The notes under the pieces are model-generated. The model was not told where the DNA came from, ran no database searches, and saw only the letters and a list, made by a program, of their open reading frames with translations. The position numbers and the translations under genes are program-made. This document shows, in pieces, positions 2,027 through 47,993 of a stretch of 64,000 bases of DNA. This DNA is from Hydractinia symbiolongicarpus (Eukaryota; Cnidaria; Hydrozoa; Anthoathecata; Hydractiniidae), in assembly GCF_029227915.1 (NCBI RefSeq), contig NC_079888.1, positions 5,281,001-5,345,000 on the forward strand. Reading direction: 5' to 3'. The first letter of the stretch is position 1. Each line of letters begins with the position of its first letter.

Positions 2027-5000
2027 TTAGTAAGAGGAAACAAAGTACTTTTTCAGATCACTTCTAAGATTAAAATAATCAAGGGAAACAAATTTTCTAG
2101 TCATTAAAGACTGCAATTTATTCCAGGAATTAATGGCATTAAATCTAATTGAGTTTTTACCAAAAGAAATAGTATTAAAGGTAGGGAGATTGATCAAACC
2201 AATTTTCTCTGCCCGAGTGCCTTGAGCATGGGTGAAGTCAACCGCAAATGTATTAAGGATAGAAGCAGGCAATTTTTCATGAAATAGTTTATGTAAAAAT
2301 AGAATATTGTGACATTTGACAATATCAGAGAATTTGAGGAGCTCAAGATTACCATACAGGTGACTGGATGATGCTCTTCGAGATTCAAAAGACATGAGTC
2401 TAATAGCAAAATTTTGCAAAACAGTAATACGATTAACATCAAGACTGTTTGGCTGACCCCAAATTTGATTACAATATTGCAAGTGTGAATGAAAAATGGC
2501 ATAGTAAACTAGAATAAGAACATTTAAAGGCACAAAGTGACGAAGTTTAGCTAAAGCTCCATTGGCCCTCTTGAGCTTGGCAACAGTATCATTGATCTGA
2601 GACTTCCAGCTTAAATCAGAATCTAATAGAACACCAAGATATTTAATACAATTACTAGGTATAAGCCTTTTACCATTGATAAAAAGCCTAAAATCGTAAT
2701 TAAGAGGTTTCCGTGTATGTTTAAAAACAATGTACTCAGTCTTACTAGCATCAAGAGAAATTTTATTGGCATTGAGCCAATGGCAAAGAAGCTTGAGGTC
2801 AAAATTCATTTGTTTGGCCAGTTGTTTCAAAGATTTACTGAAGTTTAAGAGATTGGTGTCATCAGCAAAGTGATGCACCAAAGAAAAATTAATTGAACAA
2901 TGCAGGTCGTTAATATAAATTAAAAATAAAAGAGGTCCTAAAACAGAGCCCTGAGGGACACCATGCCTGATAAGATTACTAGTTGATATATTTCCATTGA
3001 TGGATACAAACTGTTGACGTCCTGTTAAGTAAGACTTAAATAGTGAGAGTGGGGTACCACGAATTCCATAGTGAAAAAGCTTTTTAAGCAAAATTTCATG
3101 ATCAACCGTATCAAAAGCCTTTTGAAGATCAATGAACACTCCACATGCATAATTTCCTTTATCAAGAGCATCCATAATTTTTTGAGAGATGTTCAGAAGT
3201 GTTTGAGAAGTCGAGTAATTTTTCCTAAAGCCAAATTGATGCTTGTAGAGGGCGTTGTTTGCTTCGAGAAAACCATACACTCGTTTGTATATGATTTTTT
3301 CATATATTTTATCAATATTTGAGAGTAAGGATATAGGTCGGTAATTTGTTAATTCTAATTTGGACCCTTTTTTATAAATAGGGATGGTCTTGGCAGTTTT
3401 TAGGTTTGTAGGAAAAATACCAGTTGTGAAAGACAAATTAATAAGTTTTGAAAGTGGTATAGATAATTCAGATTTAACAAGAGTTAAAATATGGGCAGGA
3501 ATACTGAATGGCCCAGAAGATTTACCAGGGTCAAGGGAAGAAATGCAATGCAGAACTTCTAAATCATCAGTTGGTGAAAGAAACATCGAATTAGAAGTAG
3601 AATTTTTTAGAAAAGAGGAGAAAAGTTTTCGAGTGAACGGGATATTCATTCTGATGTTATCTGCAATTGAAGCAAAGTAATCATTAAAAGAATTAGCAAT
3701 TGTCACTGGATCAGTTACAACAGAGTTATTAATGTTCATACAGGTGGGAGAAGCAGAAACAGAAGAACGAACAGAAATAATATTTTTAACCCCTTTCCAA
3801 ATATTGCCAATATTTTTTTGGTTATTGCTAAAATATTTATTGAGGAAATTACTCTTACTCATTCTACATAGAGATACAATTTTGTTGCGGTATTTTTTAA
3901 AACTCTCTAGCAAGGAAGACTTTAAAAGTGGATCTTTCTCTCTTAAAAAGCATTTATGCAGATGGTCTCTTTTGATTATTGAGGTAAGGATACCATTAGT
4001 AATCCAAGGATTGGATTTTTTTTTTCTTTTTTTGTTGCATGTTTTTTTTAGAGGAGCATGATTGACCAATAGACTGTTGATACAATTGTAAAAATTGTTA
4101 AACGATAAGTTGGGATCATCTACATTCAATTGTAGGATATCATCCCAATTTTTATTGTGAAGTTCGGTGAGAAAGTCATTGTGATGAAATTTCTTCCAAT
4201 CATGAACAAATATATCATCAGAGGTGTGCAAAGGATTGATTGCAGACAAGTTTTTTAAGACTAAGAACTGAGGGAAATGGTCAGATATTGAACTTATAAT
4301 ATTACCAGACACAGTGTCCCACTTGGCTGAACTAAAATAAATATTATCAATAATCGTGCTAGAAACTTCAGTAACTCTTGTGGGAAGAATTATATGCGGG
4401 AGTAAGTTAAATTGCGAAGTAATATCGATGTAATCGGACACTTCTTTGACTGTTTCAGACTTTAGAAGGTCAATATTAAAGTCTCCAAGGAGGAAGATAG
4501 ACTTGTTATCTGAAGACGCTTTCTCAAGAAGAGGCAATAAAAAATGATTGTTGAACTCATCAACAGACATCGAGGGATGTCTGTAGATGCATCCAACAAT
4601 CATGTTTCTATCTTTGGCCCGTATAATTTCAATGAATTTAGATTCAAGCTCCTTGCTTTTATATGCAAGAGTATCCAGGTCGGGACGTTCAATAAATTGC
4701 AAGTGATTAGGGATGTACAAAAGAGCACCACCCTTTTCACCTTCAGTAGGTGTGTGCGTGAAGGAATAACCCGATAGATCGCAGTTAATAGGTGGGATTT
4801 TAGTCTGGAATTTGGTCTCAGTGATACCAATAACACTGAAGTCATGCCCAAGTTGACCTAACAGAATCTTTAGTTCATCAATATGTTTAGACAGAGAGGC
4901 GATATTCATATGAAAAAGGGAGAATTTATCAGAATTAACTTGAAGGGCAGAGAATTCAATTGGATCGTAATATTTGCAGTTGACACCACCCATGGTTTCA

Positions 5001-5296
5001 GGATGGGGGACCTCGTTGATTTCAATAGAGTTGAGCTGGGAGAGAAACCTTTTCATTTCCATAGAGGAAAGACTCTTGTCATAAACTAAGGGGGGAGTTG
5101 TTGAGCCAAAGGGGAGAATTTTGTTGATACATTTACAACAGAACCAAAGTTCATCAGAGTTTTGGAGAGATATATAATCATCAGCATTGAGACCATTGCA
5201 TTTAATATGAATCCAGAATTTACAAATATCACACTGAATAGCCTTATGATTTGAATTAACAGACTTTCCACAGACACCACACGGAAAATTTATCAT
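2027..5296 (-). CDS. LINE ORF2: PHD finger, APE endonuclease, reverse transcriptase (1089 aa)
   Basis: This is the retrotransposon polyprotein that nicks target DNA and copies the RNA onto it. It opens with a PHD-type zinc finger (about residues 6-57; CGVCG, CDIC, WIHIKC, CCKC). An apurinic-type endonuclease follows (about 100-350), with ITETK, LGDFNIDL and SDHFP as the usual catalytic signatures. The reverse transcriptase comes next (about 590-860), with NYRPISLLS, IDLQKAFDTVDH, GVPQGSVLGPLLF and the catalytic FADD box near residue 810. A C-terminal thumb-like region follows. There are no internal stops or frameshifts. The first Met lies just before the zinc finger, so the start is plausible. 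PHD fingers are more often found in ORF1 of CR1-like elements; here the finger is fused to the front of ORF2. Confidence 0.93.
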   Translation of the reverse strand: MINFPCGVCGKSVNSNHKAIQCDICKFWIHIKCNGLNADDYISLQNSDELWFCCKCINKILPFGSTTPPLVYDKSLSSMEMKRFLSQLNSIEINEVPHPETMGGVNCKYYDPIEFSALQVNSDKFSLFHMNIASLSKHIDELKILLGQLGHDFSVIGITETKFQTKIPPINCDLSGYSFTHTPTEGEKGGALLYIPNHLQFIERPDLDTLAYKSKELESKFIEIIRAKDRNMIVGCIYRHPSMSVDEFNNHFLLPLLEKASSDNKSIFLLGDFNIDLLKSETVKEVSDYIDITSQFNLLPHIILPTRVTEVSSTIIDNIYFSSAKWDTVSGNIISSISDHFPQFLVLKNLSAINPLHTSDDIFVHDWKKFHHNDFLTELHNKNWDDILQLNVDDPNLSFNNFYNCINSLLVNHAPLKKTCNKKRKKKSNPWITNGILTSIIKRDHLHKCFLREKDPLLKSSLLESFKKYRNKIVSLCRMSKSNFLNKYFSNNQKNIGNIWKGVKNIISVRSSVSASPTCMNINNSVVTDPVTIANSFNDYFASIADNIRMNIPFTRKLFSSFLKNSTSNSMFLSPTDDLEVLHCISSLDPGKSSGPFSIPAHILTLVKSELSIPLSKLINLSFTTGIFPTNLKTAKTIPIYKKGSKLELTNYRPISLLSNIDKIYEKIIYKRVYGFLEANNALYKHQFGFRKNYSTSQTLLNISQKIMDALDKGNYACGVFIDLQKAFDTVDHEILLKKLFHYGIRGTPLSLFKSYLTGRQQFVSINGNISTSNLIRHGVPQGSVLGPLLFLIYINDLHCSINFSLVHHFADDTNLLNFSKSLKQLAKQMNFDLKLLCHWLNANKISLDASKTEYIVFKHTRKPLNYDFRLFINGKRLIPSNCIKYLGVLLDSDLSWKSQINDTVAKLKRANGALAKLRHFVPLNVLILVYYAIFHSHLQYCNQIWGQPNSLDVNRITVLQNFAIRLMSFESRRASSSHLYGNLELLKFSDIVKCHNILFLHKLFHEKLPASILNTFAVDFTHAQGTRAEKIGLINLPTFNTISFGKNSIRFNAINSWNKLQSLMTRKFVSLDYFNLRSDLKKYFVSSY

Positions 5297-5640
5297 TTTT
5301 AAGTGAACACACAGAACATAAAAATATCACACAAAAATTATCAACAAGCCTATAGAAACAAGATAATCACGTATGAGAGCAAACGAAAACAAGCAGGAAA
5401 TGACACAACACACAAAATGACAATGGGATGTGTCAAAAGATGTGTTTAGCGTTTCAAAAGCTAGACAAGATGATAAACTACAGGGGAGTGAAAATTGATT
5501 ATTATGACCGATTCAGCAAGCAAGCGCGCAAAAATAAATAAATAAATAAATTATTAAATCGAGTGAACGAAAAAAAAAAAAAAAAAAAAAAAAAAAAACG
5601 CCTTTTTTTGGCGCGAAAAAGACACGTTTAAAAATTTACC

Positions 5641-6414
5641 TTATTCCAAGGAAACATCGTCATAATAATAATCTAAGTCGCTTACGTGAAAAATTTTAAA
5701 AGGTTCATCTGTTATATTTGGTTTAATAAAAACATTACCCTTCCAAGACCAAGATGATGCAATTCTACCTTCGTGATATAATTGACTGCTCATTCCCAAC
5801 AGGGCTTTATAAGCTGGGCAAAGATTATCTGAAATAACAACTTTACGATGATTTACACTGTCTTTCAACTTTTTACGGTTTTCGAGCGCTTTTTCAGCCT
5901 TTTTCCTGTTGACGAACCTAACTATAGTGCGCTTTGGAAATTTCGAGTCTCTTTCCCTCTTTGACTTTGGTAGGCGATGACAAGCCTCAATTTCGTTACA
6001 ATCACAGGTAACACCGATTTCCTGAAGAATGCTTATTACCTTTGCTTCGAGATTTCGATCAGCGATATCATCTGATATGCCAATGATTTCCAGATTATTT
6101 CTTCTGGAGTATTGGTCCTGGGCGTTAATCTTCATTTCAAGGTTAATTTGAGATTCGTAAATTTCGTCGTTTTCCTTTTCAAGTAATCTAATTCTTTTTT
6201 TCATATTTTTGTTGTCGTCGAGAATTCGTTTAAGAACATTATTTTTGATTTCATCTACGCTGTCTTTTATTTCTTTCAGCCCAACCTTTTCTTTCACTTC
6301 ATCCTGAACTTTTATCAAAAATTGAACCAAATCTGGCTTTGTGAATTTATCAATTTGTGATTTAGATTTTCCCACAATGTCACTTAAGTTGGCAAGTGTA
6401 AAAGACGAAGCCAT
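5641..6414 (-). CDS. LINE ORF1: coiled-coil nucleic-acid-binding protein (257 aa)
   Basis: An intact frame upstream of ORF2 on the same strand. Residues about 45-105 are rich in charged heptads (runs of K/E/L with LLEKENDEI), which predict a coiled coil. The segment around 105-180 (SRRNNLEIIGI, then FPKRTIVRFVNRKKAEKAL) resembles the RNA-recognition-like core of L1-type ORF1 proteins. A short C-terminal domain follows. In this family the protein trimerises, binds the element RNA and acts as a chaperone for priming. The order ORF1-ORF2 and shared strand support one bicistronic element. No Cys-His knuckle is visible. Assignment rests on the pattern of the motif around YSRRNNLEI plus position. 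Confidence 0.82.
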   Translation of the reverse strand: MASSFTLANLSDIVGKSKSQIDKFTKPDLVQFLIKVQDEVKEKVGLKEIKDSVDEIKNNVLKRILDDNKNMKKRIRLLEKENDEIYESQINLEMKINAQDQYSRRNNLEIIGISDDIADRNLEAKVISILQEIGVTCDCNEIEACHRLPKSKRERDSKFPKRTIVRFVNRKKAEKALENRKKLKDSVNHRKVVISDNLCPAYKALLGMSSQLYHEGRIASSWSWKGNVFIKPNITDEPFKIFHVSDLDYYYDDVSLE

Positions 6415-6599
6415 TATATCTTTATTTGAAATTAACTATTTATTTATTTAAGTTTATTATTCTAATCACTCCCCGTTGTAGATAGAGAAGTTTTACATCC
6501 GCTTATAGCTTATGAACACGTCCGTTCGCTACGATGTCTTGCTTGAATGATTACCAGTTGGTAAGGCGAAATCCACTAGGCAAAAGGACAATAAAAAAA

Positions 6600-20835: not shown

Positions 20836-21637
20836 GACCTTGTAGTCGGAAAGTGGCCTTGTGGAGTTTGCAGGAAAGGGGTTGGTAGTAACTCAATTTT
20901 TTGTCAGACTTGCAAGCATTGGGTACATAAGAAGTGCAGTAGTATTAGTGGAAGGTTAAGAGCTGACATTCAGTTTGTATGCAAGCGTTGCAAAGGTGAG
21001 ATTATAGAGAATGAAGTTTTTCCAGCTTTATTATGTACAACAGTGGCTCGTTAGAGATAGTTGAGAACTTCTGTTACTTAGGTGATATGTTGGGCAGTGA
21101 AGGGGTGTTGGAAGAAGTGTTACTTGCAGGATAGGTTCTGCTTGGAAAAAGTTCAGAGAGTTACTTCCTTTGTTGACTAGGAGAGCCCTGTCAATTGAGG
21201 TAAAAGGTAGGTTGTATGAGGCCTGTGTAAGAAGTGTTATGTTGTACGGTAGTGAGACATGGGCAGTGAAGCAGGAAGATCTTGAGCGTTTAGAAAGGAA
21301 TGATATGAGAATGGTTAGGTGGGTGTGTAACACCAGTCTGAGAGACAAAAAGAGTTCAGATGAGCTAAGAAGCAGGCTAAGTCTCCAAGAATGGAGGAGG
21401 ATAATTGGGTAAGAAAGTGTAGAAACTTGATAGTTCCTGGGGCAAAGCCCAGAGGCAGACCGAGAAAGACTTGGCAGGAGGTTATAAGGACAGACTTGAT
21501 ACAGAGGAAGTTGAGTTTAGATCTAACACAGTCTAGAGCGGGTTGGACAGGGTCATTAATATACCCTGTCCAACCCATGCTAGCGTGGGTAATGCATTAG
21601 CATTACCCACGTTAAGCCGAGAATGATGATGATGATG
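20836..21637 (+). mobile_element. 5'-truncated LINE copy with (GATGAT)n tail, copy 1
   Basis: The + strand begins inside the zinc-finger segment (CGVCRKGVGS) of the same family as the copy at 26423-27998. It runs through the C-terminal region (SVMLYGSETWAVKQEDLERL, then RGRPRKTWQEVIRTDL) and ends CGTTAAGCCGAGAATGATGA before the GAT tail. Several frameshifts break it, so no full protein results. Near the 3' end the copy has an extra short inverted pair (GTGGGTAATGC / GCATTACCCAC). Truncation from the 5' side is the normal outcome of target-primed reverse transcription. Confidence 0.9.
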
Positions 21638-22805: not shown

Positions 22806-25693
22806 AGCAAAATGTAATGTTTTAAATTTTATGTTTCTTTAGAAAAGAAGTCCATCAAAGTTCCCAAGGCACTCCAATGACTACAGTCAACGTCTGCCAA
22901 AAGGTTGGTCTACCAATGTGGCAATAGCTGAACGACAGTGGATAGGTCATCAAATTTTTGCAAATGAAAGAGACACGCCTGATCGATTTCAACAACCAAT
23001 GAAATTATGGAACCATCCACCACCTGTAAAATCATCATCAATTTCTAAGCCTGTGCCGGATAAGTATTTTTAGAGAAGAATGTTTCTATGGATGCCCCGG
23101 ATGATGTACAACTTTGATTTTAAATGTCCCAATTGTGGTAGAAGTGTACAATCCCGAGGTATACACCAAAAAGTGCGCCTGGTTTTGGATTTAAAAGATT
23201 TTTACTATCTTGCATCAGAATATTTGGGTTGTGCTTGTAGTAAAACAATCGTAGCAATGGACAGCCGCATGTTGGAACAGCTACCTTATGTCGTAACGTA
23301 GTACCATTATACGTACCACTATGCATGTGACACTGCTATCATTTCTTTCTTGAAATGAAGAACTCTTGGAAATAGTAGCAACGCCCTGAAGAACACTCTG
23401 CTTGAAATGCACCGTGAACACTGGGTCATAAGAAATCTGAACTTTCTCAGAGATTGTCAAAAGCATAAGGCAGCATTGGCCATGGTAAATGCAAAACCAT
23501 GCGTATATGCTAAAGCTGATGCATTTCGGGTCCTACCTAATTCCAAGTGGTTTTTGGCTGCATACGCAAGAGATGTGTGGTCCAGATTGGACATATGCAA
23601 GGCATCGGTTACCAGTGTATTTGGAGATGTTTTAAAAATCGATTCTAACAAAAAAATATTGTCAAGACTTACAGGAGATGCAAAAACATCTGAAACTTAG
23701 TTGAGAAACGTTGGTAATGAGTATGGTCCTATTTTGCAAAGCATTGTCACATCATCAGAGTCAAATGAGTCTTTGCAACCTATGGCAGATGGTCTGATGT
23801 CACGGTACAAAAACGCAGATGTCCCACCACCTAGCCTTTTGTATACAGACAGAGATTGTTGTAGTCTCAGTGTACCATCAAGGTTTAAGAGGTTCTTTCC
23901 ATCTTGGGACAGTTTGGAAGTTCGCTTGGACATTTGGCACTTCATGAGGCGCATTGCGCTTGGCTGTACTTCCGAATCCCACCCTCTTTATGGTTCCTTT
24001 ATGTCACAGCCCTCAGGATGTATTTTTGAATGGGAAGAAGGTGATTACAAAAAGTTAGTTGCTGCTAAGAAGGAAGAGCTTCAGATGAAAGGACTGTCGG
24101 CACCCTCGTTAAAAGCGGTTACCAATGCAATAACAAAATATGAATTGGCCAGACATTGCAAAAGAAAAACGAGAGGTGCTTCAGTTACCACAAAAAAATT
24201 TGAAGAACTTATCCTTACATATACTGGGTGTACTGACACTTTAGGTGTGCCATTCCTAAGGGAGAACATGGTGGAAATATATAATGAGCAAAAGAAGCAT
24301 ATTGTTTGCACCCAAGACCCAGACATGCCATTATATACTCAAGTGAAAATGGTTAAAAAAAGAGCTTCGTTTTTTCCATTGTACCGCTGTGCCAGAGAAG
24401 CACTTCATTAGAATCTTTTCACTGCCACCTGTTAAAGTTTATTCCAGGATCTTCTGCCAATGCAGTAGAAAAAAAACAGGCAGAAGGTCCAGGGATGCTT
24501 TCTTTACGTTCCTTCGATGTTGAACTCGTTGCAAAGTTCAACAAAATGCATTTGGATGTATATGGAGAAATGTTTAACAACAAACCTGTTCCAAATAAAG
24601 CAACGAATGAAGTAATTGGTATGGAATATGTTTTTCGACAAATTGACATGAGCTTTACTCAAGCTTACGTAGACAGTACCATCGAAAACGGGTGCAAGTT
24701 AGAAGATGAGGGCATATAGGTTGATGTAGATATCGATACTTCTGCTGTCAACCATCCAGTAGAGGACTTTGCTGATGGAGATGATGATGGCACAGAAGAG
24801 ATCGATGACACCACTACCGCTACTACCGACTCAAAAGGAATTCCTGGTTGGAATCATGTTGATGCGTTGGCACAAGCTCTTTTAGCATCGCATGGTCCAG
24901 TATTTCGGATGAAGATGCACAAAAAATCACTAGTCTCTTCAATCAACTGGACGAATATGACAAAAAGCCAATAACATATACAACTGTTTACCGGAAGCCA
25001 GTAAAAGGACGCTTCTGCACAAGGAAGAGGGAAGGTTTTACTGGTTTGGTGCAAATGAAGAGATCGTTTTTGTCAGGTGCCTCCCCTGCTCTTTTCCCAT
25101 CAAAAAGTAGGGTGGTTGAGGCTATTTGTATTCATCTGTGCCAGAAAATAACAGTACCACACACATCTACACGTAGTGCCGGAAGCAGACAGTACCGTTC
25201 TCGTTGGGGTACCATTTTAAAGGAGTACAATGCCATTCGTGCGAGGTTATTTAGCAGTCAACACCTGTTGAATAATACTAATATTACTTTGTTCAACATC
25301 AACGAGACCACCCTTAGACTTTGTTCAAAGACAAAATTCGAAGCAAAGAGATCATAACACTGATGCAAGGAAGACCTGTCCTTAAAGCTGTGTACATTTC
25401 AGTTGATACTTTGCCAGTTGTTTGTGAACGAGCAAACACAATGGAAGGTTTAAAGAACCCTATTAAGTTCACCAATCATGAAGACCAATCTGGACAGTGT
25501 AAACGTTCATACTGTAGAAAGGGAAAAACATCTGTTGCAACAGAAGCAGGTGAACCAGCATTAAAAGTAATACCACCCATTAACATTTCACCAGTATTAC
25601 CATCACCTATCTTACCAATGCCACACATGTTTACTCCTCCATCATCACCACCTTTTACCGTACCTGTTATTGTTTCACCAAATTTCGTGTAGA

Positions 25694-25732
25694 CCAATCG
25701 CGGCCATTCAAGACGGGAAATTCAGTCTGCGC
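25694..25732 (+). repeat. Left inverted repeat of the RAG1-like element
   Basis: CGGCCATTCA followed closely by ACGGGAAATTCAGTCTGCGC. The same sequence appears inverted at 31870-31920, where about 11 extra bases separate the two blocks. The pair brackets the RAG1-like gene. I could not find a flanking 5 bp target duplication or a clear terminal CAC trinucleotide, both expected for Transib/RAG elements. Confidence 0.6.
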
Positions 25733-25802
25733 CTGCGCGATTCTTGTGCGTTATATTTCAGAAAAAAAGTGAATTTTGGCGACCTGGTAAAGCTCTCACG
25801 AG

Positions 25803-25996
25803 ATGGAAGGTTTTGAAGATTTAAAATTTCCTGGTATTAAAGGTTTTTTGGCTAGTACTGAAGTTGCTTGTGGATGTATATATGATATGTGGAAACAGCA
25901 AAACGGACGTCGAAGCACTGTGCTTTTTTTTACAGAACTTGTAAAGCCCCAAACCTGGGGCATCAGACACGAAGAAGCAAATGAACCATCAGTCAG
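25803..25996 (+). CDS. Short ORF or first exon of unknown function
   Basis: The frame opens at an ATG 70 bp inside the left inverted repeat and codes for about 65 residues (MEGFEDLKFPGIKGF...), with two Cys in ACGCIYDMW. It ends at an AG/GTAACT donor-like border; an in-frame TAA follows at once. It faces the 3' end of the RAG1-like gene, so the two are convergent. No family is recognised. It could be a leftover first exon of a second transposon gene, or chance. Confidence 0.35.
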
Positions 25997-26422
25997 GTAA
26001 CTGCTTAAAAATTATATTTTCTGTGTAGTATAGATGCAGTGTAGCCATAAAACGTTCCTTAAATATAAAAATATATTTTAAATGTCCTTAAATTTTCTTT
26101 TTTTTACTTGAGGGGTCATGCTTTTTGCCATCGGTTTGACTTTCAGATGATGTCGCTCAAGCATAACTTTGACTCGAGCGTTATGTGGTCGGACTGATGC
26201 ATAAGTAGCTCTCAATTTGTTAAACTCTGGATGTATGCTCTCTCCTCCTTGTTCACCATACATGCCAAGACCAAAGTGCCACCTCTTTATAAAGTCAACT
26301 ACATGGTCCTCCAACATGTGGAGTTTTGGTGTTATAGACCGGTTTGGAAAAGTGGTTCATAGATAATCCATTAAATCTTTTATTGCAGCATCTAGAAAAG
26401 ATCATTAAGTACAGTTGATTGA

Positions 26423-27998
26423 CATCATCATCATCATCATCATTCTCGGCTTAACGTCTGTTTTCCATGCTAGCATGGGTTGGACGGGGTATATTAATGA
26501 CCCTCTTCCAATCTGATCTAGACTGTGTTAGATCTAAACTCAACTTCCTTTCTATCAAGTCTGTCCTTATAACCTCCTGCCAAGTCTTTCTCGGTCTGCC
26601 TCTGGGCTTTGCCCCAGGAACTATCAAGTCTCTACACTTTCTTACCCAATTATCCTCCTTCATTCTTTCCAAGTGCCCCAGCCAATTCAATCTTCTTATC
26701 TGGATAACATCTTTAATTCTACGGAGACTTAGCCTGCTTCTTAGCTCATCTGAACTCTTTCTGTCTCTCAGACTGGCATTACACATCCACCTAACCATTC
26801 TCATATCATTCCTTTCTAAACGGTCAAGATCTTCCTGCTTCACTGCCCAAATCTCACTACCGTACAACATAACACTTCTTACACAGGCCTCATACAACCT
26901 ACCTTTTACCTCAATTGACAGGACTCTGCTAGTCAATAAAGGAAGTAACTCTCTAAACTTTTTCCAAGCAGAACCTATCCTGCAAGTAACACTTCTTCCA
27001 ACACCCCCTTCACTGCCCAACATATCACCTAAGTAACAGAAGTTCTTAACTATCTCTAACGAGCCACTGTTGTACATCATTAAAGCTGGAAATACTTCAT
27101 TCTCTACAATCTCACCTTTGCAACGCTTGCATACAAACTGTATGTCAGCTCTTAACCTTCCACTAATACTACTGCACTTCTTATGTACCCAATGCTTGCA
27201 AGTCTGACAAAAAATTGAGTTACTACCAACCCCTTTCCTGCAAACTCCACAAGGCCACTTTCCAACTACAAGGTCACACTTGGCTGCAATGCTACTTATC
27301 ATGACTTTAGACTTTGCTGTGTTTACCTTCAGCCCTTTCTCTTCTAGTCCTTTCTCCCACTTCTCAAACTTTTCAACTAATTCTTCCATCGACTCTGCTA
27401 TGAGAACCAAATCATCTGCATACAATAACTCCCATGGACAACCTGTTCTGAACTCCATCGACAGCGCTTCTAAGACTAGAATAAACAACAAAGGACTAAG
27501 TACAGAACCCTGATGTACACCAACATTTACACTAAATTCATCACTAAGTGAATCGTTAATCCTGACACGACTTCTAGCATTGCTGTACATAGACTGAACC
27601 ATCGTAACTAGCCACTCATCCACACCTAATTTTCTCATAGCCCACCGAATAACTTTACGTGGCACTCTATCAAAAGCTTTCTCTAAATCTATAAAGGCAA
27701 AATAGAGATTCTTTCTCTTTCCTAAATACTTTTCCTGAAGCTGTCTGAGTAAAAATATTGCATCTGTAGTGCCACGCCCTGGAACAAAACCAAATTGCAT
27801 CTTATCTATATCAATTCTTTCTCTAAGTAACTTATCAATCACTCTTTCAATAACTTTCAATAACTTTCAACCAACTTCAAACCTCTATAGTTACCCCTTT
27901 CTAATGCATCACCCTTGCCCTTGAAACAGTTCACTATTACACTCGACTGCCACTCACTTGGAATAGCACCATCCTTTATAATCTGGTTAGCAAGACGT
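26423..27998 (-). mobile_element. 5'-truncated LINE copy with (GAT)n tail, copy 2, nested in the RAG1-like gene
   Basis: It reads leftward, starts inside the reverse transcriptase and ends with the family 3' end (CGTTAAGCCGAGAATGATGA) and GAT tail at 26423-26442. It lies between the exon ending near 28075 and the GEQGGES exon at 26078-26380 of the RAG1-like gene, so it inserted after that gene. A 10 bp duplication near 27855 (TTGAAAGTTA twice) shifts the reading frame in the fingers of the reverse transcriptase. Confidence 0.9.
26451..27860 (-). pseudogene. LINE reverse transcriptase fragment with zinc finger after the RT domain
   Basis: About 469 codons remain open. The reverse transcriptase part has FGFVPGRGTTDAIF, FIDLEKAFDRVPR, GVHQGSVLSPLLFILVLEAL and the YADD catalytic box. 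A Cys/His cluster follows directly (CGVCRKGVGSNSIFCQTCKH, then WVHKKC and CKRCKG), a PHD-like finger placed between the palm and the C-terminal region. After it come YGSEIWAVKQEDL, NWLGHLERM and RGRPRKTWQEVI, typical of the C-terminal part of many LINE ORF2 proteins. Upstream codons for NYRGLK exist in another frame (27861-27990), showing a frameshift. No endonuclease part is present because of 5' truncation. The frame given starts without a true ATG. Confidence 0.85.
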
Positions 27999-30900
27999 AG
28001 TATACATATACAGTAACAGTGCCAGTATCAATATGGAGCTTTCTTATGTTATAAACAGCTTTAAGAAAAATCTTTTACCAAACCAAGAGGCGTAAACCGG
28101 TTAAAAAGTATAAACGTCGTTTGTCGGACGGCCCCTTACCCAATTCATCCATGTTTTCATCACTAAATAAATCACACGAATTCATCAAGTTATAGCACAG
28201 TGCATATTTGAGAAAAAGGTGTTTGAACTGTGTTGCTATTTGAATAGCATCTGTGTGAATATCTGTGTCAACGAAACCCATTCGGTAAACTTCTTTAGGT
28301 ATGGTTTACGTTTTTTGTTTAGCTCCTCAATTTGTGACAACTAAATAGATAATATACATATAATTTTTAGTAGTGCAATATAAATGACTATAACTAATAA
28401 AAACAAACATAATTACCTTTTCTTTTAATTTGGTTTTTAAATGGACCAACCAAGGTTAAAAAACTTCATTGATTTCTACCTCTTGATCAGGATTTTTTAA
28501 AATATTTGAATTTATTGCTTCGTAAACCAAATTTATTTTGTTTTCGTAGTCGCCTGCAAGATATTGGAGTCTCTTATCTTGGACTGTGTTGTAACATATG
28601 CATCAAACCATTTTGATCTAACTTCCTGTTATTTACTGCCATAGCTGCTGCAATTTTCACGTCCAAAAGATGACAACGATCTTCGAGCATAATGAAGAAT
28701 TTAAGATACGACCCCAACGAAATATGTAAAGCTGGTAATGCAACCTAGAAGAAAAATATATGTTAACGTTCGAGGTTTTAACAATCCACAATGAAAAAAT
28801 ATTAGGATGAAATGTATTTCAATGGAGATGTTAGGGTGATAAAAACATTCACTATCATTACTTAGATGGCTTAGTTAATGAAAAAAGACTCACTTGCTCT
28901 ATGGGAACATTAAACATAACTTCATCGATAACATTGTTAAAGTGTTTCGCATCTTTTATATTTCCACCAGCAGCTTGAAATTATCGTAATCAAATTTCAA
29001 AGTGAGTAGTGTTCGTTTTTCATAATTTCCTCTTGTTGCCAATGATACTTGTAATTCTTTTGATGTTATGTTGTAAAATAAGCAGCAGTGACGACCTTAA
29101 TTAAAAAGTCAATTTTTTAAAAATTATCAATAAGTTATAATTTATTTATTAAAATCGTCAACTAATGCAATACCATTTGCTCCAGTCAATCCATAAATAG
29201 CACAAAGGAACTCATAATCACCATAAATGAAAACTCTCATATTTCTTGTTCTGAAAAAAAAAAAGAGTTTATAATATCTGTTAGTTGTAGATATGTATAC
29301 ATTCCTAAATGTATTTACCTAAAAAAATATTTATACCTTCAGTTTTGTGTTTGTAAAGTATCAATTTGAGATTTAAATGTGTCAAGCCCCATCTTCAGAT
29401 TTACTCTGTAGTCCTTTGCTTCGAAAGCACTGAACACAACTATATTCCCTTTGCTGTTTGGATGAAGTGTGTTACAGTATTGATAGGACATTTTAAACGA
29501 TTTCCAACCATGGTCCCCACCAATCTTTACATGGATCTCATTATCAGGAGTTTGTTTCTCAACAAATTGAGCATACCTTAATAAAATACAATTATATGGA
29601 ATTCAATAACATTTTAATTTACTGTGCATTTGTGAGATTTGTAGTAGAGAAACTTACTTGTATAATAAATTTAAGTAACAAAGAACGTAATGTGAAACCA
29701 GTACGTAACCCCATGGTGCCTCTCTAACGTCATAAGATCCCTTTTCCTCTTTAATTTGAAATCTGAAGGGAACACTTTCAACAACTATGTCATCCCCTGT
29801 CCACTCCTTTGCCACCTTTCGTTGTCTTGCCTGGGAAGCAACTTTGATGTTAAAGGTTTTTAGCCATCTATTGACAAATAATAATAAATAAAAATGTAAT
29901 TATGGATGAAAATGTCAATGTTGTTTATTGGAATTGTGATTTTTGCTGCTGTTACCAAACGCCAAAATTATTTTTTATCAAATAAATGAAAACCTTACTA
30001 AAACCTTACTATAAACCTTACTTAACGTATATAATGGGAAGTATGCATGCCGTTCCATTTTGTGTAATTTTTCCCATGGGATCCCTAAGTCAACTTTCAT
30101 AGATATCAATGTCTCTGCAGAGATTGATGTTGATAAAATATCAGGTTGCTTCAAACTATTTTCTTTTTCATTTTCTTGAAAACTGTTTACTAATTTATAT
30201 GTTTGGTTAACCATGGATGAAGATGTTCTACCAGTTGGTTTTGTAAAAACCTGTTTCTGATTTGGAGAGTTTTGCGAGTTACTTCAGTTCCCTTAATAGC
30301 TTTTGGTGTGGATAAAACAAAGCATTATGATCATTGTGCTGGATACTTCGTATGTTAGACTTTGTAATAAATGCGAAATAACTTTAATGTTAGAAAATTG
30401 TTTGACGTTTCACAAAATTTTATAGATTTGGCCAAATTTAGATATATCACATTGGAAGTTTATTTTTTGCTGATCGAATTTCAGGAAAATTTTCTGACAT
30501 TAAAGTAAAATAAGAATGCTATTTTTTACCCGAGAACCACCAGTCATAAACTCGATACTTTTATTTGGCAACATTGACTGTGCCATTTTTGTTTTTATGA
30601 CACAAAGGACAGCTTCTTCAAATTCTCGTGAAATAGGACTACTTTTATCTAGAGCGAACAAGTCGTTTAACAATGTATGTGATGATGTCGCCAAGATATT
30701 TTTTTGACCACAACATGATGCTTGGTGTATTTCTCTTGAGTTCATTCCAAAATATCAAAATTAATTCCACATCCTATTACACATTCCAGCTTAAGACACT
30801 TTGTCATATCAGTTATACCCTTTGATGGTATTATAGAATCTGGTGCTATAGCTGTTGATTTCTCTTCTTTAGATCAAACAGGACACTTGGTTTCTGTCAG

Positions 30901-31869
30901 CAGCAGGCCTTCAACCTGCAGCAACAAACATTTAAAACAAAGTGTGTGATGACAGGCAGTTATTAAAATGGGTTGAACTGGACAAGTACACAGATGCAAA
31001 TGACTATTTTGTTCAGATGTTAAACTTTTTATATTACATTTGTCAGGAATAATGTCTGCCGACATTTTATGTAGTAATTTTAGCGAGCATTCTTTTGTCC
31101 AGTATAAATGTTTTCCAGAATATCGCCTGGTACTTCCTCTCTTTTTTGGCCTCCCACCTCTTTTTAATGTTTTAAATTGAGTGCAAAAAGTACAATTACT
31201 GCTATGCTGACACCATGAAATATTTAAGTGCTGAGAAGTTGCATTATGTTACCATATTTTTTTAACTTGCAATAGCACTTCATGCAAATATTCTTTGGAT
31301 GAATATCATCCTTATCCTTATCAATGTCTACTAAGAAATATTTCTTGAGAGGTTCTTTTACTTTAACGTTTAATGCACTAAGCACATTGTGAGAGTTCTT
31401 AGGCAACAACTATTGGCAAATTCTACAAACTTGAGATAGGTTTTGAAGATGTCAGGCAGCCATGTTCGATTTTAGTGTAGCTAGCTAGCGAAAACTATGG
31501 TCTAAACTTTTATTAATAACTTTATCTAAAAGTATAACAGTAACTTATTAGATACATGTATAGAAAGCCGAATAATTGCTATGTATAACACTTATCATGA
31601 AAAACTTATTAGGAAAAGTTACTGACAGATCGTGAAATATGTGTCTTTTTACTTGCGACATTTTCCGGCGAATTCCCGCTATTTTGTATGTTCTTAGCTG
31701 AGCATGGCAATAGCAAAATATATATTTGGATTCCTTGATAAAAACATTAAAATCTGATCAGAAATTATCCGGTTGGCTAACAGAACACAGGAGGTGTTGA
31801 TAAGCACGTGTGTCCATTCCCCGCGCGAGCCTAAATTATCAGTTGTTTAACTTCTGCCTTTTGAAGCAC

Positions 31870-31920
31870 GCGCAGACTGAATTTCCCGTTTCTTGTACAA
31901 ACTGAATGGCCGTGCAATGG
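31870..31920 (-). repeat. Right inverted repeat of the RAG1-like element
   Basis: It is the reverse complement of the left repeat: GCGCAGACTGAATTTCCCGT, an 11 base spacer, then TGAATGGCCG. It ends about 4 bp before the damaged acceptor stem of the tRNA-Lys remnant at 31924. Confidence 0.6.
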
Positions 31921-31923
31921 GCG

Positions 31924-31996
31924 TAAATTTAAGCTCAGTCGGTAGAGCATGAGACTCTTAATCTCAGGGTCGTGGGTTCGAGCTCCACGTTGGGCG
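31924..31996 (+). pseudogene. tRNA-Lys(CTT) pseudogene with destroyed acceptor stem
   Basis: From position 10 onward it matches tRNA-Lys(CTT), including D arm, anticodon CTT and B box (GGTTCGAGCTC, one change). The first nine bases read TAAATTTAA instead of GCCCGGCTA, so the acceptor stem cannot form. It is the left-arm partner of the intact tRNA-Lys at 34074-34146. Confidence 0.9.
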
Positions 31997-32246
31997 CTTT
32001 TGTTGTTCCTGTTGGTATTTATTGTGAACCCACTGTGCCTGTAAAGGCTGATACTCCAAACCACATCGGACTACGTTCATTTTTACTTTTTTTAAACCGG
32101 GGTCTCATTCAACTGAAATCCAAATTTTGAGCTCGAATCCAGATTCCCATAGATTTACCAACGCTGGTAACAGATATAAGGCGTTGCAACACTTGTGGTA
32201 ATTATTTTAACGTTAAGTATTATCAACAGCAAAAATCCAAAACTTA

Positions 32247-32318
32247 TGACCCTGACGTGAATTGAACACGCAACCTTCTGATCTGGAGTCAGACGCGCTA
32301 CCATTGCGCCACAGAGTC
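32247..32318 (-). tRNA. tRNA-Trp (anticodon CCA), left arm
   Basis: 72 nt on the - strand: GACTCTGTGGCGCAATGGTA at the 5' end, loop ACTCCAGAT with CCA, B box GTTCAATTC, 3' CAGGGTCA. The acceptor stem GACTCTG/CAGGGTC pairs with one T-G. Intronless, and the same as the copy at 33752. Confidence 0.95.
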
Positions 32319-32385
32319 GTTACTGACATCTGGTCTTTACTTGTGCCATAATCACTTTGCCGTAAAACGAAAAAGAAAGAAAAGT

Positions 32386-32458
32386 TGTTTCCGCCCGGGC
32401 TCGAACCGGGGACCTTGCGCGTGTTAGGCGCACGTGATAACCACTACACTACGGAAAC
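32386..32458 (-). tRNA. tRNA-Val (anticodon AAC), left arm
   Basis: 73 nt on the - strand starting GTTTCCGTAGTGTAGTGGTT. The anticodon loop contains CTAACAC with AAC, the B box is GGTTCGAGCCC, and the acceptor stem GTTTCCG/CGGAAAC is perfect with discriminator A. Confidence 0.96.
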
Positions 32459-32707
32459 ATGCTGTTGAATGCGAGAGTGCTGCTTTATACTTTCTTGGTC
32501 ATGACAGATTTTGCAAACGGAGGATCTTTTTAAACAATCTGTCAATAGATTTAAATCAACGATCCAGTTGCATGGCGGAAAGTTTGCGTATTCGTCATCG
32601 CTATCGCTGGATGACACAGCGTCTGCAATTTTTTTTCGACTAGTGCTATCTGGACGATCGGCAGTAGAAACCTTTTGCTTTAATCTTCTTTTTAGCCGGC
32701 GAGTCAA
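32459..32707 (-). CDS. Exon-like ORF, unknown; basic start, acidic patch, CxxC
   Basis: About 80 residues are open up to the border of the tRNA-Val gene. The frame has a basic N terminus (TRRLKRRLKQK), a Ser/Asp acidic run (SSSDSDDEY), then NWIVDLNLLTDCLK and VCKIC. This pattern of an IVDL-LLTDCLK block followed by CxxC occurs at the front of some transposon-derived proteins in cnidarians. It lies in the spacer between the tRNA arms and appears cut off by the left arm. It may be a fragment and is not assigned a function. Confidence 0.3.
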
Positions 32708-33611
32708 ATATTTTTGTTTTAGGTATTGTTCTTTTTTTCGATGATATAAAAGCTTTATGACGATAGGACATTTTTATTCGCTGTTAAACTTGTAAACTGG
32801 TTTTGCCATGTTTTTCACGGTAATTTAACTTAGGAAGACAACATAGAAAAAGAAAATATCCTTATGAGAAATAGGAGAAAACTTCAAAAGAGTCTTTTAA
32901 CTACATACGAAAATCATTTTCCTCTTTGAGTCGGCTATCATTAACCGTGAACATAATTGAGTAGTAAAGATTAATGCCCAAGATGATTACGTGTGAACAA
33001 ATATTTGATCTTTATCGCATAACAAAAAAGTAATTTATAAAAAAAAATTGGGGGAATAATAATCTATCTTAAATACATTTTTAAAAAAAATATTTTTGCA
33101 CCATTTAAAAGCCCAGATCTTTTGCTACCTAATCACTGAAAAAAAATATTTTTTTTTAAAAAAAAAAACATTTTTTCGTATACTCAGTTGTACATTATCA
33201 TGTTGAACATGTTGAACTTTTTATAGTATGTGAGCCTAAAACCTTCACCATTTAACCTTTTTGCGTTCCTAGTTTTAGAAACTTTGTTTAACAGCTTACC
33301 AAATAGTTATCTAAGCACGATCTATAAAAAATAAAAAGTAAAATTCATTATAAATAATTTAAATAAATATAACAACTGGGCTGTCGTGGGTGGGAAAATG
33401 TTGAAAATTTACCTTGAAAATAAACTCGTTCCAACGACAATTTCAATTTTTAAAGTCAACCTGTAGAAAACTTTTTAAAAAAATAAATAAGATAGTGATA
33501 ATTTTATTTGGAATAACAAATGTTTTGGATTAAGCAAAAGAGCAAAAATTACACGAAAAAAAAACCCACCACAAAAAGCCGGCCGATTAAATGTTTTGTA
33601 GAACCAAGCAA

Positions 33612-33684
33612 GTTTCCGTAGTGTAGTGGTTATCACGTGCGCCTAACACGCGCAAGGTCCCCGGTTCGAGCCCGGGCGGAAACA
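33612..33684 (+). tRNA. tRNA-Val (anticodon AAC), right arm
   Basis: 73 nt, sequence as in the left-arm copy: 5' GTTTCCGTAGTGTAGTGGTT, anticodon AAC, B box GGTTCGAGCCC, perfect acceptor stem. Confidence 0.96.
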
Positions 33685-33751
33685 ACTTTTCTTTCTTTTT
33701 CGTTTTACGGCAAAGTGATTATGCCACAAATGAAGACCAGATGTCAGAAAC

Positions 33752-33823
33752 GACTCTGTGGCGCAATGGTAGCGCGTCTGACTCCAGATCAGAAGGTTGC
33801 GTGTTCAATTCACGTCAGGGTCA
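33752..33823 (+). tRNA. tRNA-Trp (anticodon CCA), right arm
   Basis: 72 nt, 5' GACTCTGTGGCGCAATGGTA, loop ACTCCAGAT, 3' CAGGGTCA. Same as the left-arm copy. Confidence 0.95.
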
Positions 33824-34073
33824 TAAGTTTTGGATTTTTGTTGTGGATAATACTTAACGTTAAAATAATTACCACAAGTGTTGCAACGCCTTATCTCTGT
33901 TACCAGCGTTGGTAAATCTATGGGAATCTGGATTCGAGCTCAAAATTGGGAGTTCAGTTGAATGAGACCCCAGTTTAAAAAAAGTAAAAATGAACGTAGT
34001 CCGATGTGGTTGGGAGTATCAGCTTTTACAGGCACAGTGGGTTCACAATAAATACCAACAGGAACAACAAAAG

Positions 34074-34146
34074 CGCCCAACGTGGGGCTCGAACCCACGA
34101 CCCTGAGATTAAGAGTCTCATGCTCTACCGACTGAGCTAGCCGGGC
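34074..34146 (-). tRNA. tRNA-Lys (anticodon CTT), right arm
   Basis: 73 nt on the - strand, the same sequence as the gene at 16595-16667. A box, anticodon CTT, B box and acceptor stem are intact, unlike its mirror partner at 31924. Confidence 0.96.
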
Positions 34147-42942: not shown

Positions 42943-45900
42943 CAGGGGCGGATCCAAACCCCGTCAAATGGGTCAAAGGACGGGGTTCAAAAATAACAAG
43001 TATAGTTTATCTAATTTTCAAATATTTAGTACTAACCAGTAATATTTGGGGCGTGTAATAATGTATTCATTTGAGCGCTCATCAATATAAAAATTAATAA
43101 TATTGCCGCCGCTGCTGCTGCCGTGTGTATGGTCGCGCGGTGGTGGCGGTGGCGCGCGTTATGGCATCAGCTTCATTTTCGTTGCGAAGACAGGGCGCAA
43201 AGATGGCTAGACCTAATCTTTAATGGTGGATAGAAAAATATAGACTTTGTTCTGCAGGTTTTTGACGGAGCAATGAGGTTATTCTTAACTCTTATTGGTC
43301 TAGAGTGCCGGGTTTGCAGGAGAAGAACACCGGCAGGATTTGATTGGTCCTTACAGAAGTTTTCTTAAGCTGTGATTGGCTAAAAATCAATACCCTGCAA
43401 AAGCCAAAATTCTCACGCTAGTCTTCATCTTCATATCTTCCTCAACATTATTGCTCAACATGGCGTTTAGTTCAGTGAGAGAAGATGTTTTGAAATTATT
43501 TCAAGACGAAGATTTGCAGAAATTGATTGAAATATTTAATATTTATTCTGAGAAATGGATAAATTCAAATAAAAATGTGTTTTTAAACACAGAACAGCTT
43601 TATGCTGTACTTTCTTGCGGAGAAATTGGTGTGAATGAAGATGCTTTGAAATATCTTCCTGCATCAGTTTCTTCCAAGAATTGTGTTGCATTGAGGTAAG
43701 ATTTTATTTTCTGTAATTTCCATTTCTGATTATTGCTGACCATTTGTTACCATAGTAATTAAGTGTACATCACTATGTCATCACCATGAACTACTTATGG
43801 CTAGCTAGCTAGCTACATGTATTCGTGGTTTTTGTTTTGATTATTACTCTTGGAGAGCTAGCAACCGTATCTATGGTAGCTAGCTGGCATGTGTGTGTGG
43901 AATTAATAATGGTTTTGATTCTTCTCAAAATGTTAAAATTTAGTGTCTTTGCTCTGGGGAGTGAATTCTCTTTAATTTCTCTAAGAAATATTTATTTATT
44001 TTTCACTGTTTAGGTCCGAATCATCTGGAAATTGCTTGTTTAGCTCCATATCCTTATGTCTGGTAGGTGATAATACTTTGACGCAACAGTTAAGGCTACT
44101 TGCTTGCATTGAACTTTTTGTCAATTCTGAGTATTATAGTTCTCACCCCAATTTATTTGTTGACAAATATCCATCTTTAAGTCCATCAAATATTTTAGCA
44201 ATGTCAGTATCTCATGCTGCTGTTGATACTAATTTTAAGGCTGCTGAACTTGTCAAAGCTGAGGCTACTTTTTGTTTGAAAAACATGAACCAGTGGTCTG
44301 GTTTTCTCTTTGTTTTGTCATTGTCTTCTATAATTCGCAGAAATATTATGTGTTATTATCCTGATTGTGGTCCTCTCAAATACAAAGAAATATTCAATAA
44401 AAAGGTTTTTCCACGTGTGCCAAAGGTTGATGAAACTTGCTTCCATATTTTGTTTTGTTATGAAGGTTATCTCATTTCAGATATTACTTTTAAACATAAT
44501 CACTATGTGCCACTTTTATTTACTTCTAAGGAATTAATTTATAAGCCTCTATTTAAGAAGAAATGTATGTCTACCAATGTTTCTGGATTCTTTCAAAAGA
44601 AAATTGATTTTAAACCTGTCACCAAGAATAAGCTTATTTTACCAAAGGTATCTCTTCCTCAGCAATTGCCTACATCAAGTCAGGATCCCCAAGCAATAAT
44701 AAAAGGTACTAATAATACACCTTCAAGCAACATTTCAAATCCTTATACTTCTTCTGTATCTAATGTTTTTAGTAATCTTTTACAAAATAGTACTAGCCAT
44801 GAACCTAATTTTTTTCCAAACAATAATAAGTCAGTCATAACATCAAAAATAGTTGATTCCCTTCCACAAAATTTTGATGTAACTGATGTTGCATATTACA
44901 GACTTCGTGTTAAAGAAGGGATGACAGACAAACAAATTTTCGATCTAATAAATCAGACTCTTTCCCCTTCTGCAGATTATACCTACCCTAAAACTTTAAA
45001 ACGTCAGTTCCGTTCAAAGTGGTTGAAAGATTACCCTTGGCTTCGCTACTCACCAGCCTATGATGGGGCTTTTTGTTTACCCTGTGTTCTTTTTGGATCA
45101 AAGTTCCCTGACAAATGTGGTAAAAATTCAAAACCTTTTTTTACAACCTTTTACAAAATGGAATGATGCAACTAGATCTTTTAATCAACATCAATCCACA
45201 AATAATGGTTTACATGAATTTACTTCCACTGTTTTTAATAATTTCATTAGTCAGATGTTATCTAAATCCCAGCCCATCAATGTTTTAGTCAATGATCAGC
45301 TACAACAGAAAATAAACAAAAATAGAGAAGTTTTGAAATCTATTGTTGATACCATCATTTTATGTGGTCATACCAATTCAGCTTTGCGGGGACATAGGGA
45401 TGATGGGAAATATCTCCCTGAGGCAGGAGGCTATGCTAATCAAGCCGGGGTTGGAAATTTTCATAAGTTTTTAAACTTTTCAATTCGCAGTGGCAATCAA
45501 CTATTAAAAGATCATTTAGAGTCCAGTGCTAAAAATGCCAGGTATATTTCTAAAACAGTGCAGAATGACTTAATTGGATGTTGTGGTCAAGAAATTACTA
45601 ATGAAATCATTTCTGAGGTTAAAGTAAATAAGTTTTATTCCATAATTGCAGATGAAGCATGTGACTCATCAACTAAAGAGCAAATGGCTCTCATTTTAAG
45701 ATATGTTGATAGCACTTGTGAAATAAAAGAGGACTTCATTCGTTTTTTACACTGCTCTGAAGGATTATCTGGTGCTGATCTCTTCAGTACAATTATGAAA
45801 TGTTTAAAAGAAGATCTAGGGCTTGACATAATGGATTGCAGAGGACAGGGCTATGATGGTGCTGGGTCAGTTTCTGGTCACATTAATGGTCTATCTTCTC

Positions 45901-47993
45901 ATATTTTAAGACTTAATTCAAAAGCCATTTATACACATTGTCACTCTCATAAACTTAATTTAACAGTGTGTGATTCCCTAGACATATTGTTAGTGTCAGA
46001 AGTGTTTGATAAAGTGAAGGAATTGTCATACTTTTTCAATTTGTCTGAAACAAGACAAAACGTTCTGCAAAAGTTTGTTGTTGAGTGTAAGCCTGATACC
46101 TCAAAATCTAAGTTGAAAGATATTTGTAGGACAAGGTGGGTTGAACGAATCGATGCTCTAGAAGACTTTTTGAAATTGTACACAACCATTGTGAAATGTC
46201 TTAAATATATGTCTTCTTCTGATTGTATGTGTAACAGAGATACAAAGTCTAAGGCTTCAAGTTTTGTCAATTCAATTTCCAGATTTGATTTTTTAATTTC
46301 TTTAGTGTGTACTACCAAAGTTCTGTTGGTGACTCTTCCTGTCACACGAAATTTACAATCTAAATCTGTAGATATTCTTAAAGGTATCAATTTAATTTCT
46401 GCATTGAAAAAAGAGTTAATTGATACTAGAAATTCTGTTGATGCATTTCATAATAATGTATTTTCTGAGGCAGTTGCTATTGCAAATGAGCTGGATGTAA
46501 CCATTAAAGCACCAAGAATTTGTAAAACACAAATCCATAGGTCAAACACTCCTTTTGACTCAGTATCTGATTATTTTAAACGTTCAGTAACAATACCACT
46601 TCTAGATTTTCTTAATACTTCTATTAGTAAGCGCTTTCAACCTGAAACAGTTGCTGCTTACAAAGGATTGGCATTAATTCCATCTCATTTATTTTTCCTT
46701 AAAAGTCAGGGTAAAGACTGGAAAAACGAAGTTCAAGATTTTATTACATTTTATACGTCTGATTTTCTTAGTGTTAATGCCCTTCAATCTGAACTGTCGC
46801 TCTGGGAAAAATATTGGGAAGAATATACTGATACTCTCCCTGATAGCATATCCTTGGCATTAAAAGCAGTTTCTTTCCCTGGTTTTGAAAATATAAAAAT
46901 AGCCCTACGTATTCTAGGGACTCTTCCTGTTACTTCCTGTGAGAGTGAAAGGAGTTTCTCTGCATTAAGAAGGTTAAAAGAATACGCACGGAGTACCATG
47001 ACCAATGATCGTTTAAATGGGTTAGCATTGTTATATATCCATCAAGAAATTATCCCTGACAAAGATAAAGTTATTGATAGATACGCTCTTTCAAATCGTA
47101 GGCTTGAATTTTAATTGTTATGTATATTTGTTGCAAAGGTTGGTATTATATTATACTATTGGTATTCTTAAAAAATTAATTTAATAGAAAATATGTTTAT
47201 CAAAATTATTAAACACTTATATTAATACTACTTTATCACTTTGATTGTTAACATATTTCGTGTTCCATTTCCATTTTTTTAGTCCATAGTTCATTTTCAT
47301 TTAATTGACAACTGTCAAGAAATAGTAGAACATAGTTGCAGGGACTGTGGGGTTACTCAGTTGTCATTTTATCCTGCATTCATTTTTGTTCATATCAAAC
47401 CATTTCATTCCAATATTCATTATCATTTAATTGACAACTGTCAAGAAATAGTAGAACATAGTTGCAGTTGTCAAGTTATCCTGTATTTTTTAAATATAAA
47501 TATGCCAATGACAGCTAAATTTTTCTCTATTTTTTCCTCATCATTGTATCTTGTTATCTTAATTCTTTACTTCTTTTTTATTTGGCTGTCCATGTCTGGA
47601 TCACATTTTTTGTTATCCTAGGCATGCTGATGAGCTCTGATATTGAGCGAAACGGCCTATTAACATCTATAAATTATATGAGATAATCTTGTTTCTTTAG
47701 TTCATAGGCTTCATATATAACAATAGAAACTCAGCAAGAAAGACAAGCAACCAAACAACATTGTTGAAAAGATGACACGGTAACGATTTTCGTTTTATGC
47801 TGTATGAATGACAAATAGCCTTTTTATTTTCCAAATAATTTAGATGCGGAAATGTTGTTTTCAGACAATCTATGACCCTCCAATGTTTAAAAATTTTCTG
47901 GCCCCTCACGCCCAACCATGGTGGGCCTTCGCGTGTCACTAATATAAGTACATTTTATGACGGGGTACATCAGAAATCCTAGATCCGCCCCTG
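42943..47993 (+). mobile_element. hAT-superfamily DNA transposon, 5.05 kb, with TIRs and TSD
   Basis: The ends are inverted repeats, CAGGGGCGGATCCA at the left and CAGGGGCGGATCTA (inverted) at the right. They are flanked by a perfect 5 bp direct repeat TCATT (42938-42942 and 47994-47998). hAT elements usually duplicate 8 bp; I recall a hAT subgroup with 5 bp duplications, which this would match. Intact ends and a gene with one lesion indicate a recent insertion. A 45 bp block of the 3' region (AATTGACAACTGTCAAGAAA and onward) is duplicated at about 47298 and 47424. Confidence 0.9.
43460..47114 (+). CDS. OTU-protease / TTF zinc finger / hAT transposase fusion (one frameshift)
   Basis: Exon 1 is 43460-43695 and exon 2 is 44014-47114, with GT-AG borders and matching phase; about 1.1 thousand residues. 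The first part of exon 2 carries an OTU cysteine-protease signature (SGNCLFSSISLCLVGD, with the nucleophile Cys, and later HNHYVPLL for the His); the usual Asp before Gly is Ser. A TTF-type finger follows (RSKWLKDYPWLRYS, then DGAFCLPCVLFG). Then comes the hAT transposase: IADEACD and GQGYDGAGSVSG for the two Asp, a TRWVERIDAL block, and a C-terminal dimerisation motif SCESERSFSALRRLK. A run of seven T at 45136-45142 puts the two halves in different frames. This may be a true mutation or a homopolymer error in the assembly. The role is cut-and-paste transposition; the OTU part may remove ubiquitin, but this is inference. Confidence 0.88.

Follow-up and report, generated by a model that had tools for sequence, protein, structure and literature searches.

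A 64,000-nucleotide stretch of the Hydractinia symbiolongicarpus genome (RefSeq assembly GCF_029227915.1, contig NC_079888.1, positions 5,281,001 to 5,345,000; hereafter the window) harbors a transposable element of 6216 bp on the − strand (25699–31914), a length that includes a nested long interspersed nuclear element (LINE). As read from the sequence, the element carries a single gene in which a Chapa/RAG1-type zinc region and a RING finger are joined to a DDE core, between terminal repeats that start with CAC. It is flanked by a 4-bp target duplication and disrupted by the LINE, by stops, and by frameshifts; the genome elsewhere holds related copies and derivatives without transposase, some of them miniature. 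The spacing differs between the two ends: the outer and inner repeat blocks are 14 bp apart at the end upstream of the gene and 3 bp apart at the downstream end. The locus probably represents an autonomous Chapaev DNA transposon that is now dead, a judgment that applies to the best explanation as a whole, including the mechanism proposed below.

The gene pieces span 31463 to 26081 on the − strand. The first part of the N-terminal zinc region (CRIC ... IHPKNICMKCY, 31239–31463) and the second zinc pair (WCQH..CTFC) with its degenerate RING finger (30715–31248) each harbor two in-frame stops. EFEEAVLCVI follows, and the first exon ends in the EFEEAVLCVIKTKMA block (30530–30712). An exon in two frames (30047–30291) is a weak candidate at the place of the RAG1 nonamer-binding domain, and another (29657–29869) corresponds by position to the pre-RNase H region. 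The DDE core begins with the first-D exon (KIGGDHGW, 29354–29578), which is matched by tblastn to protein P0029 and others, and continues with the second-D exon (YGDYEFL, FIYGDYEFLCAIYG, 29172–29249). Next are a C(2)C zinc exon with an internal frame change, the second cysteine of which is replaced in the window copy (28894–29093), and a helical region in several pieces with one stop (28135–28744). The last exon (26081–26392), also with one stop, combines the HMLEDH zinc pair with the putative catalytic E (YGEQGGES). The nested LINE separates it from the helical region; its open frame (26451–27866, −) encodes a reverse transcriptase (RVT_1, 1.2e-29) with a PHD finger (1.1e-6) inside the same frame. 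Six in-frame stops are found across the joined pieces, together with several frame changes, one of them within a stretch that is a single 317-codon open frame in a paralogue. The original prediction had correctly placed DDIHPKNICMKC, CHHTLCFKC, and EEAVLCVI in this order on the − strand. Its single locus is not an intact gene, given the inserted LINE and the broken reading frame.

The DDE core belongs to a family distinct from RAG1 by sequence. The first-D exon matches PF06918 (DUF1280) at an E-value of 1.1e-8, above the Pfam cut-off. In the window copy, the zinc pieces are matched less clearly: the first gives PF12560 (RAG1_imp_bd) at 4.4e-4, below the cut-off, and the second gives a weak best RING match of 0.007. 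In the paralogue L012, where the zinc/RING exon is open, PF12560 (1.8e-9) and RING (9.2e-6) are both above the cut-off. A DUF1280-type core, a Chapa/RAG1-type zinc domain, and a RING finger after Chapa are thus all present, as in Chapaev with RING. DUF1280 proteins are putative Chapaev transposases, and RAG1 and DUF1280 are placed in one clade of the RNase H-like superfamily (PMC3985635). The C(2)C and H..H motifs between the second D and the E are found in the alignments of relatives and in the paralogue frames.

From the database, the joined window protein retrieves five proteins, led by P0001 (2.2e-111) and including two from Hydra vulgaris, and its best named matches by summed tblastn bits are Hydra proteins; an enrichment of DUF1280 genes is already on record for Hydra genomes (PMC7642931). 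A profile built from the five relatives, with scoring limited to the 7990 candidates that had most words in common, retrieves 38 proteins; the names among them come from Hydra, Branchiostoma, Haliotis, and Lineus. Among the combined 41 relatives, 38 carry DUF1280, 19 carry RAG1_imp_bd, and six carry the commonest RING model at a threshold of 0.001, counts that are not frequencies because not every member spans the full architecture. The best full-length relatives bear PF06918, and many of them PF12560 as well.

If the element were instead a cnidarian RAG1-like (RAGL) or Transib transposon whose core is genuinely that of RAG1, this would also account for the RAG1-type zinc region with RING and for the CAC-starting ends. 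A fold comparison, moreover, places RAG1 closest to the core of a full-length relative, and the core fold of Transib is present. By sequence, against PDB chains of RAG1, the joined window protein matches in the zinc region only (21wb_A, E 0.003), and P0001 alone gives 0.024 there. The five-relative profile reaches 2.4e-9 against the RAG1 RING but scores better with a general RING protein (RING2 chimera, 5.2e-10), and it gathers 3.0 bits only at the catalytic-E region of RAG1. For the first exon of the paralogue, no RAG1 chain occurs among the best 60 of 62 PDB matches, and general RING proteins come first (1.5e-5). No Pfam RAG1-core match was obtained from the seven gene pieces, from the five relatives at E-values up to 1, or from the families of the 41 relatives at 0.001. 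Nor was a RAG2-like or kelch match found in the open frames scanned, and in the window and the paralogue less than 0.7 kb lies between the gene and either end. The candidate D, D, and E motifs of the original prediction do follow the zinc region, but the profile match goes to DUF1280 (Chapaev) and not to the RAG1/Transib core that it had named.

The ends of the element are defined by its genome copies. The 19-mer CGGGAAATTCAGTCTGCGC has exactly two sites in the window, inverted with respect to each other (25714–25732, + and 31870–31888, −), and no third site at up to 3 mismatches; none occurs in 100 shuffles. Aligned locally, the two ends score 48, whereas shuffling the mononucleotides of one side 300 times never gave more than 31. 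The original prediction had named this shared core within its short inverted repeats. The copies reveal that the repeats extend outward beyond the 19-mer, to CAC at 31914 on the gene-upstream side and to a decayed CGC at 25699 on the other; this CAC is intact in L017/L044, an independent copy of the short end. The layout is CACG(G/T)(T/C)CATTCA with few changes, a spacer, and then the inner block GAAATTCAG..TGCGC; the tips read CACGG or CACGT in genome copies. The 5′ repeat, of the long type (31870–31914, −), consists of an outer 12 bp (31903–31914), a 14-bp spacer (31889–31902), and an inner 19 bp (31870–31888). The 3′ repeat, of the short type (25699–25732, +), has an outer 12 bp (25699–25710), a 3-bp spacer (25711–25713), and an inner 19 bp (25714–25732).

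Comparison of the flanks identifies the target duplication as ATTG, in − strand reading, at 31915–31918 and 25695–25698. The duplication is a perfect 4 bp in eight of the ten two-ended copies, with 3/4 in L022 and 2/4 in L014, and not the 5 bp that had been anticipated. CAC tips with a 4-bp duplication agree with the CMCT clade of transposons, which is characterized by 5′-CA..TG-3′ termini, 2–5-bp duplications, and C(2)C/H(3-4)H motifs (PMC12730594). In contrast, 5-bp duplications are reported for RAG, Transib, and RAGL (PMC7204232), and Transib lacks an N-terminal zinc/RING region and has a different core family. Owing to DUF1280, the duplication length, and the missing RAG1-core match in the pieces and relatives scanned, a RAGL or Transib identity was rejected and is regarded as very improbable.

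In the whole genome (480.9 Mb), the 19-mer has 17 occurrences, and the reversed control has none. Fifteen loci around the other copies were fetched, viewed first within 10 kb and in some cases then extended. Both ends are present in seven of the 15 within 10 kb and in two more after extension (J12 and J13, which have common flanks); six have one end only. With the window, this amounts to ten two-ended copies, nine of them distinct. On contig C1, sites 31920005 and 31928182 could by position form one further element, but their outer flanks (tcat and attt, same strand) differ as a target duplication, and the pair was therefore left out of the count. Four long ends on the same contig (L032–L035, 25.7–31.9 Mb) share their outer flank and therefore probably go back to a single insertion that was multiplied when the segment around it was duplicated.

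The copies fall into three subfamilies: that of the window; that of J12 with the 304-bp L014; and elements of 3.2–4.2 kb without detectable transposase together with the 410-bp L018. Each of the two miniatures carries one long and one short Chapaev end. Such small elements could suggest that the repeats belong to an unrelated element and that the RAG1-like gene is trapped host sequence. However, the J12/J13 locus contains the same gene, the same kind of ends, and its own target duplication, a finding by which a small-element origin of the repeats was discarded. In addition, both ends of L014 align with those of J12 (45 bp at 100% and 260 bp at 96.5%), and L014 looks like an internal-deletion derivative of the J12 element. 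Nesting of unrelated elements is thus very improbable, and the original proposal that zinc region, RING, and DDE core are joined between terminal inverted repeats in one transposon is supported.

All ten two-ended copies have one long and one short spacer, of 14 and 3 bp except in L018 (16 and 3). Where a copy has transposase sequence and its long end could be placed (window, J12/J13, and L011), that end lies upstream of the gene. A genome search for the two blocks 0–30 bases apart yields 21 sites, 14 at N=17, six at N=6, and one at N=19, with no sites at other spacings in this range and none for the reversed control; N counts three inner-block bases as well, and an exact match was required at the specified letters of the blocks, which leaves diverged ends uncounted. 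When sites that share a flank are merged, 17 distinct ones remain (10, 6, and 1, respectively). A looser end scan produced many chance matches (6–9 mismatches) and misaligned at J09, J10, and J11. A scan of every position in eight extended loci (spacing 0–30, at most 5 mismatches) was used instead and returns 10 ends, seven at N=17 and three at N=6. The step between the ends is 11 bp, the same as that between the recombination signal sequences (RSS) of V(D)J recombination (23 minus 12). The inner block is therefore displaced by about one helical turn between the two ends, as in a 12/23-type arrangement, and its GAAAT or GAA motif begins 30 (long) and 19 (short) bases from the tip.

In the main rival reading, a Chapaev element inherited the 14/3 spacing as a frozen accident, from one ancestral 11-bp insertion or deletion and with no pairing rule; this reading stands only a little short of an even chance. 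All copies belong to one family in one genome. By our estimate, a 14-bp spacer with about seven substitutions should have acquired few insertions or deletions, so its constant length is moderate evidence; both points weigh against a pairing rule. On the other hand, the length is kept in three subfamilies whose long-end spacers are identical at 4–7 of 14 positions, except in the one 16-bp copy; 16 of the 17 distinct sites fall at two values; and the step approximates one helical turn and equals the 12/23 step. Between subfamilies, the outer block of the long ends is identical at 10–12 of 12 positions, while their 19/19 inner identity is selected because the loci were fetched by the inner 19-mer. 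The short ends, which are mostly unselected, agree at 8–11 of 12 outer, 1 of 3 spacer, and 14–17 of 19 inner positions. The asymmetry is testable in one genome only, because searches for relatives in IMG/VR (two pattern stretches) and in GTDB genomes (23 stretches) gave none that was confirmed.

The transposase would probably work in a RAG1-like manner. On the basis of the RAG1/Transib fold and the CAC tips, cut-and-paste would proceed by binding and cutting of the core at the CAC tip, with a nick followed by a hairpin. A domain between the RING and the core, at the place of the RAG1 nonamer-binding domain, would grip the inner block; a comparison of this region with the nonamer domain is weak by itself, with VIA-align covering 23 chains only, and that no other folds appear there carries no weight. 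If the binding domain is flexible and the inner blocks that it contacts are displaced by one helical turn, mixed pairs would be favored, as they are in V(D)J recombination; the enzyme would then pair one long with one short end under a 12/23-like rule without RAG2. The RING finger may have E3 ligase activity, directed at the transposase or at host factors, as in RAG1.

The surroundings of the insertion contain other mobile sequences. A decayed element with a DUF6729 domain (22843–25692, +; 3.5e-23) abuts the Chapaev insertion site, its last open frame stopping 2 bases short of the target duplication. On the other side, a tRNA Val-Trp-Lys cluster is present as a 97% inverted duplicate (31932–32463 and 33607–34138); the acceptor stem of the left tRNA-Lys has lost its 5′ strand, and a few bases upstream of this tRNA lies the Chapaev insertion. 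A probable second fragment of the nested-LINE family, with antisense frames alike by eye, lies at 21031–21516. A long LINE frame (2027–6435, −) encodes a PHD finger, an endonuclease, and a reverse transcriptase, and upstream of it is a 264-aa frame that looks like an ORF1 and has no Pfam match. At 43985–47114 (+), a hAT-type transposase with DUF4371 is preceded by a 393-aa frame, OTU-protease-like by eye and also with no Pfam match.

The P element differs from the window element in transposase family and target-site length. Chapaev with RING (Kapitonov and Jurka; Kapitonov and Koonin 2015, PMC4411706) has the same Chapa, RING, and DDE core, distantly related to Transib and RAG1, and a DUF1280 core (PMC3985635); the window copy is dead. 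RING-bearing Chapaev is reported from lancelet and sea anemone, and the union of Chapa, RING, and core was inferred for a common ancestor with Transib, deep in animal history (Kapitonov and Koonin 2015; PMC4411706). The main point of the original prediction is not new, since Chapaev already explains a zinc-RING region on a RAG1-related core in a cnidarian: the joined architecture holds, but its bearing on early RAG1 evolution had been drawn for Chapaev (PMC4411706). Likewise, RAG1L–RAG2L pairs were reported from three cnidarians in 2020 (PMC7204232), in line with RAG1-like cores in this phylum, although the window core is not RAG1 by sequence. N-RAG-TP of Aplysia, a mollusc transposon, shares a RAG1 N-terminal-like sequence and is described as that sequence only (PMC8355894). 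Vertebrate RAG1 and its RSS resemble the window family in the N-terminal zinc region, RING, core fold, and CAC-starting ends. In contrast, the window family has a core unmatched by sequence and no RAG2 in the frames scanned, its inner block is GAAATTCAG and not the nonamer, and its target duplication is 4 bp. Adding 7+23 and 7+12 puts the beginning of the nonamer at 31 and 20, compared with 30 and 19 for the GAAAT or GAA of the second block here.

The unequal ends may be new. The cited Chapaev and RAG literature, in the portions available, makes no mention of 12/23-like Chapaev ends, although no search was aimed at them and absence from print is not claimed. Outside RAG, the 12/23 asymmetry is described for some Transibs only, no RAGL ends obey it, and its origin is posed as a central question (PMC8355894). 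With its 11-bp step at distances matching those of the RSS, this Chapaev family bears on that origin and offers a RAG2-free system for asking whether end pairing is old in this enzyme fold or arose more than once. It is conceivable, though unlikely, that a one-helical-turn end difference, recognized without RAG2 by a transposase of RAG1 shape, goes back to the ancestor of Chapaev, Transib, and RAG1, and that the 12/23 rule of V(D)J recombination descends from it. If so, the 12/23 rule would derive from an end-pairing rule in Chapaev-like transposons of early animals.

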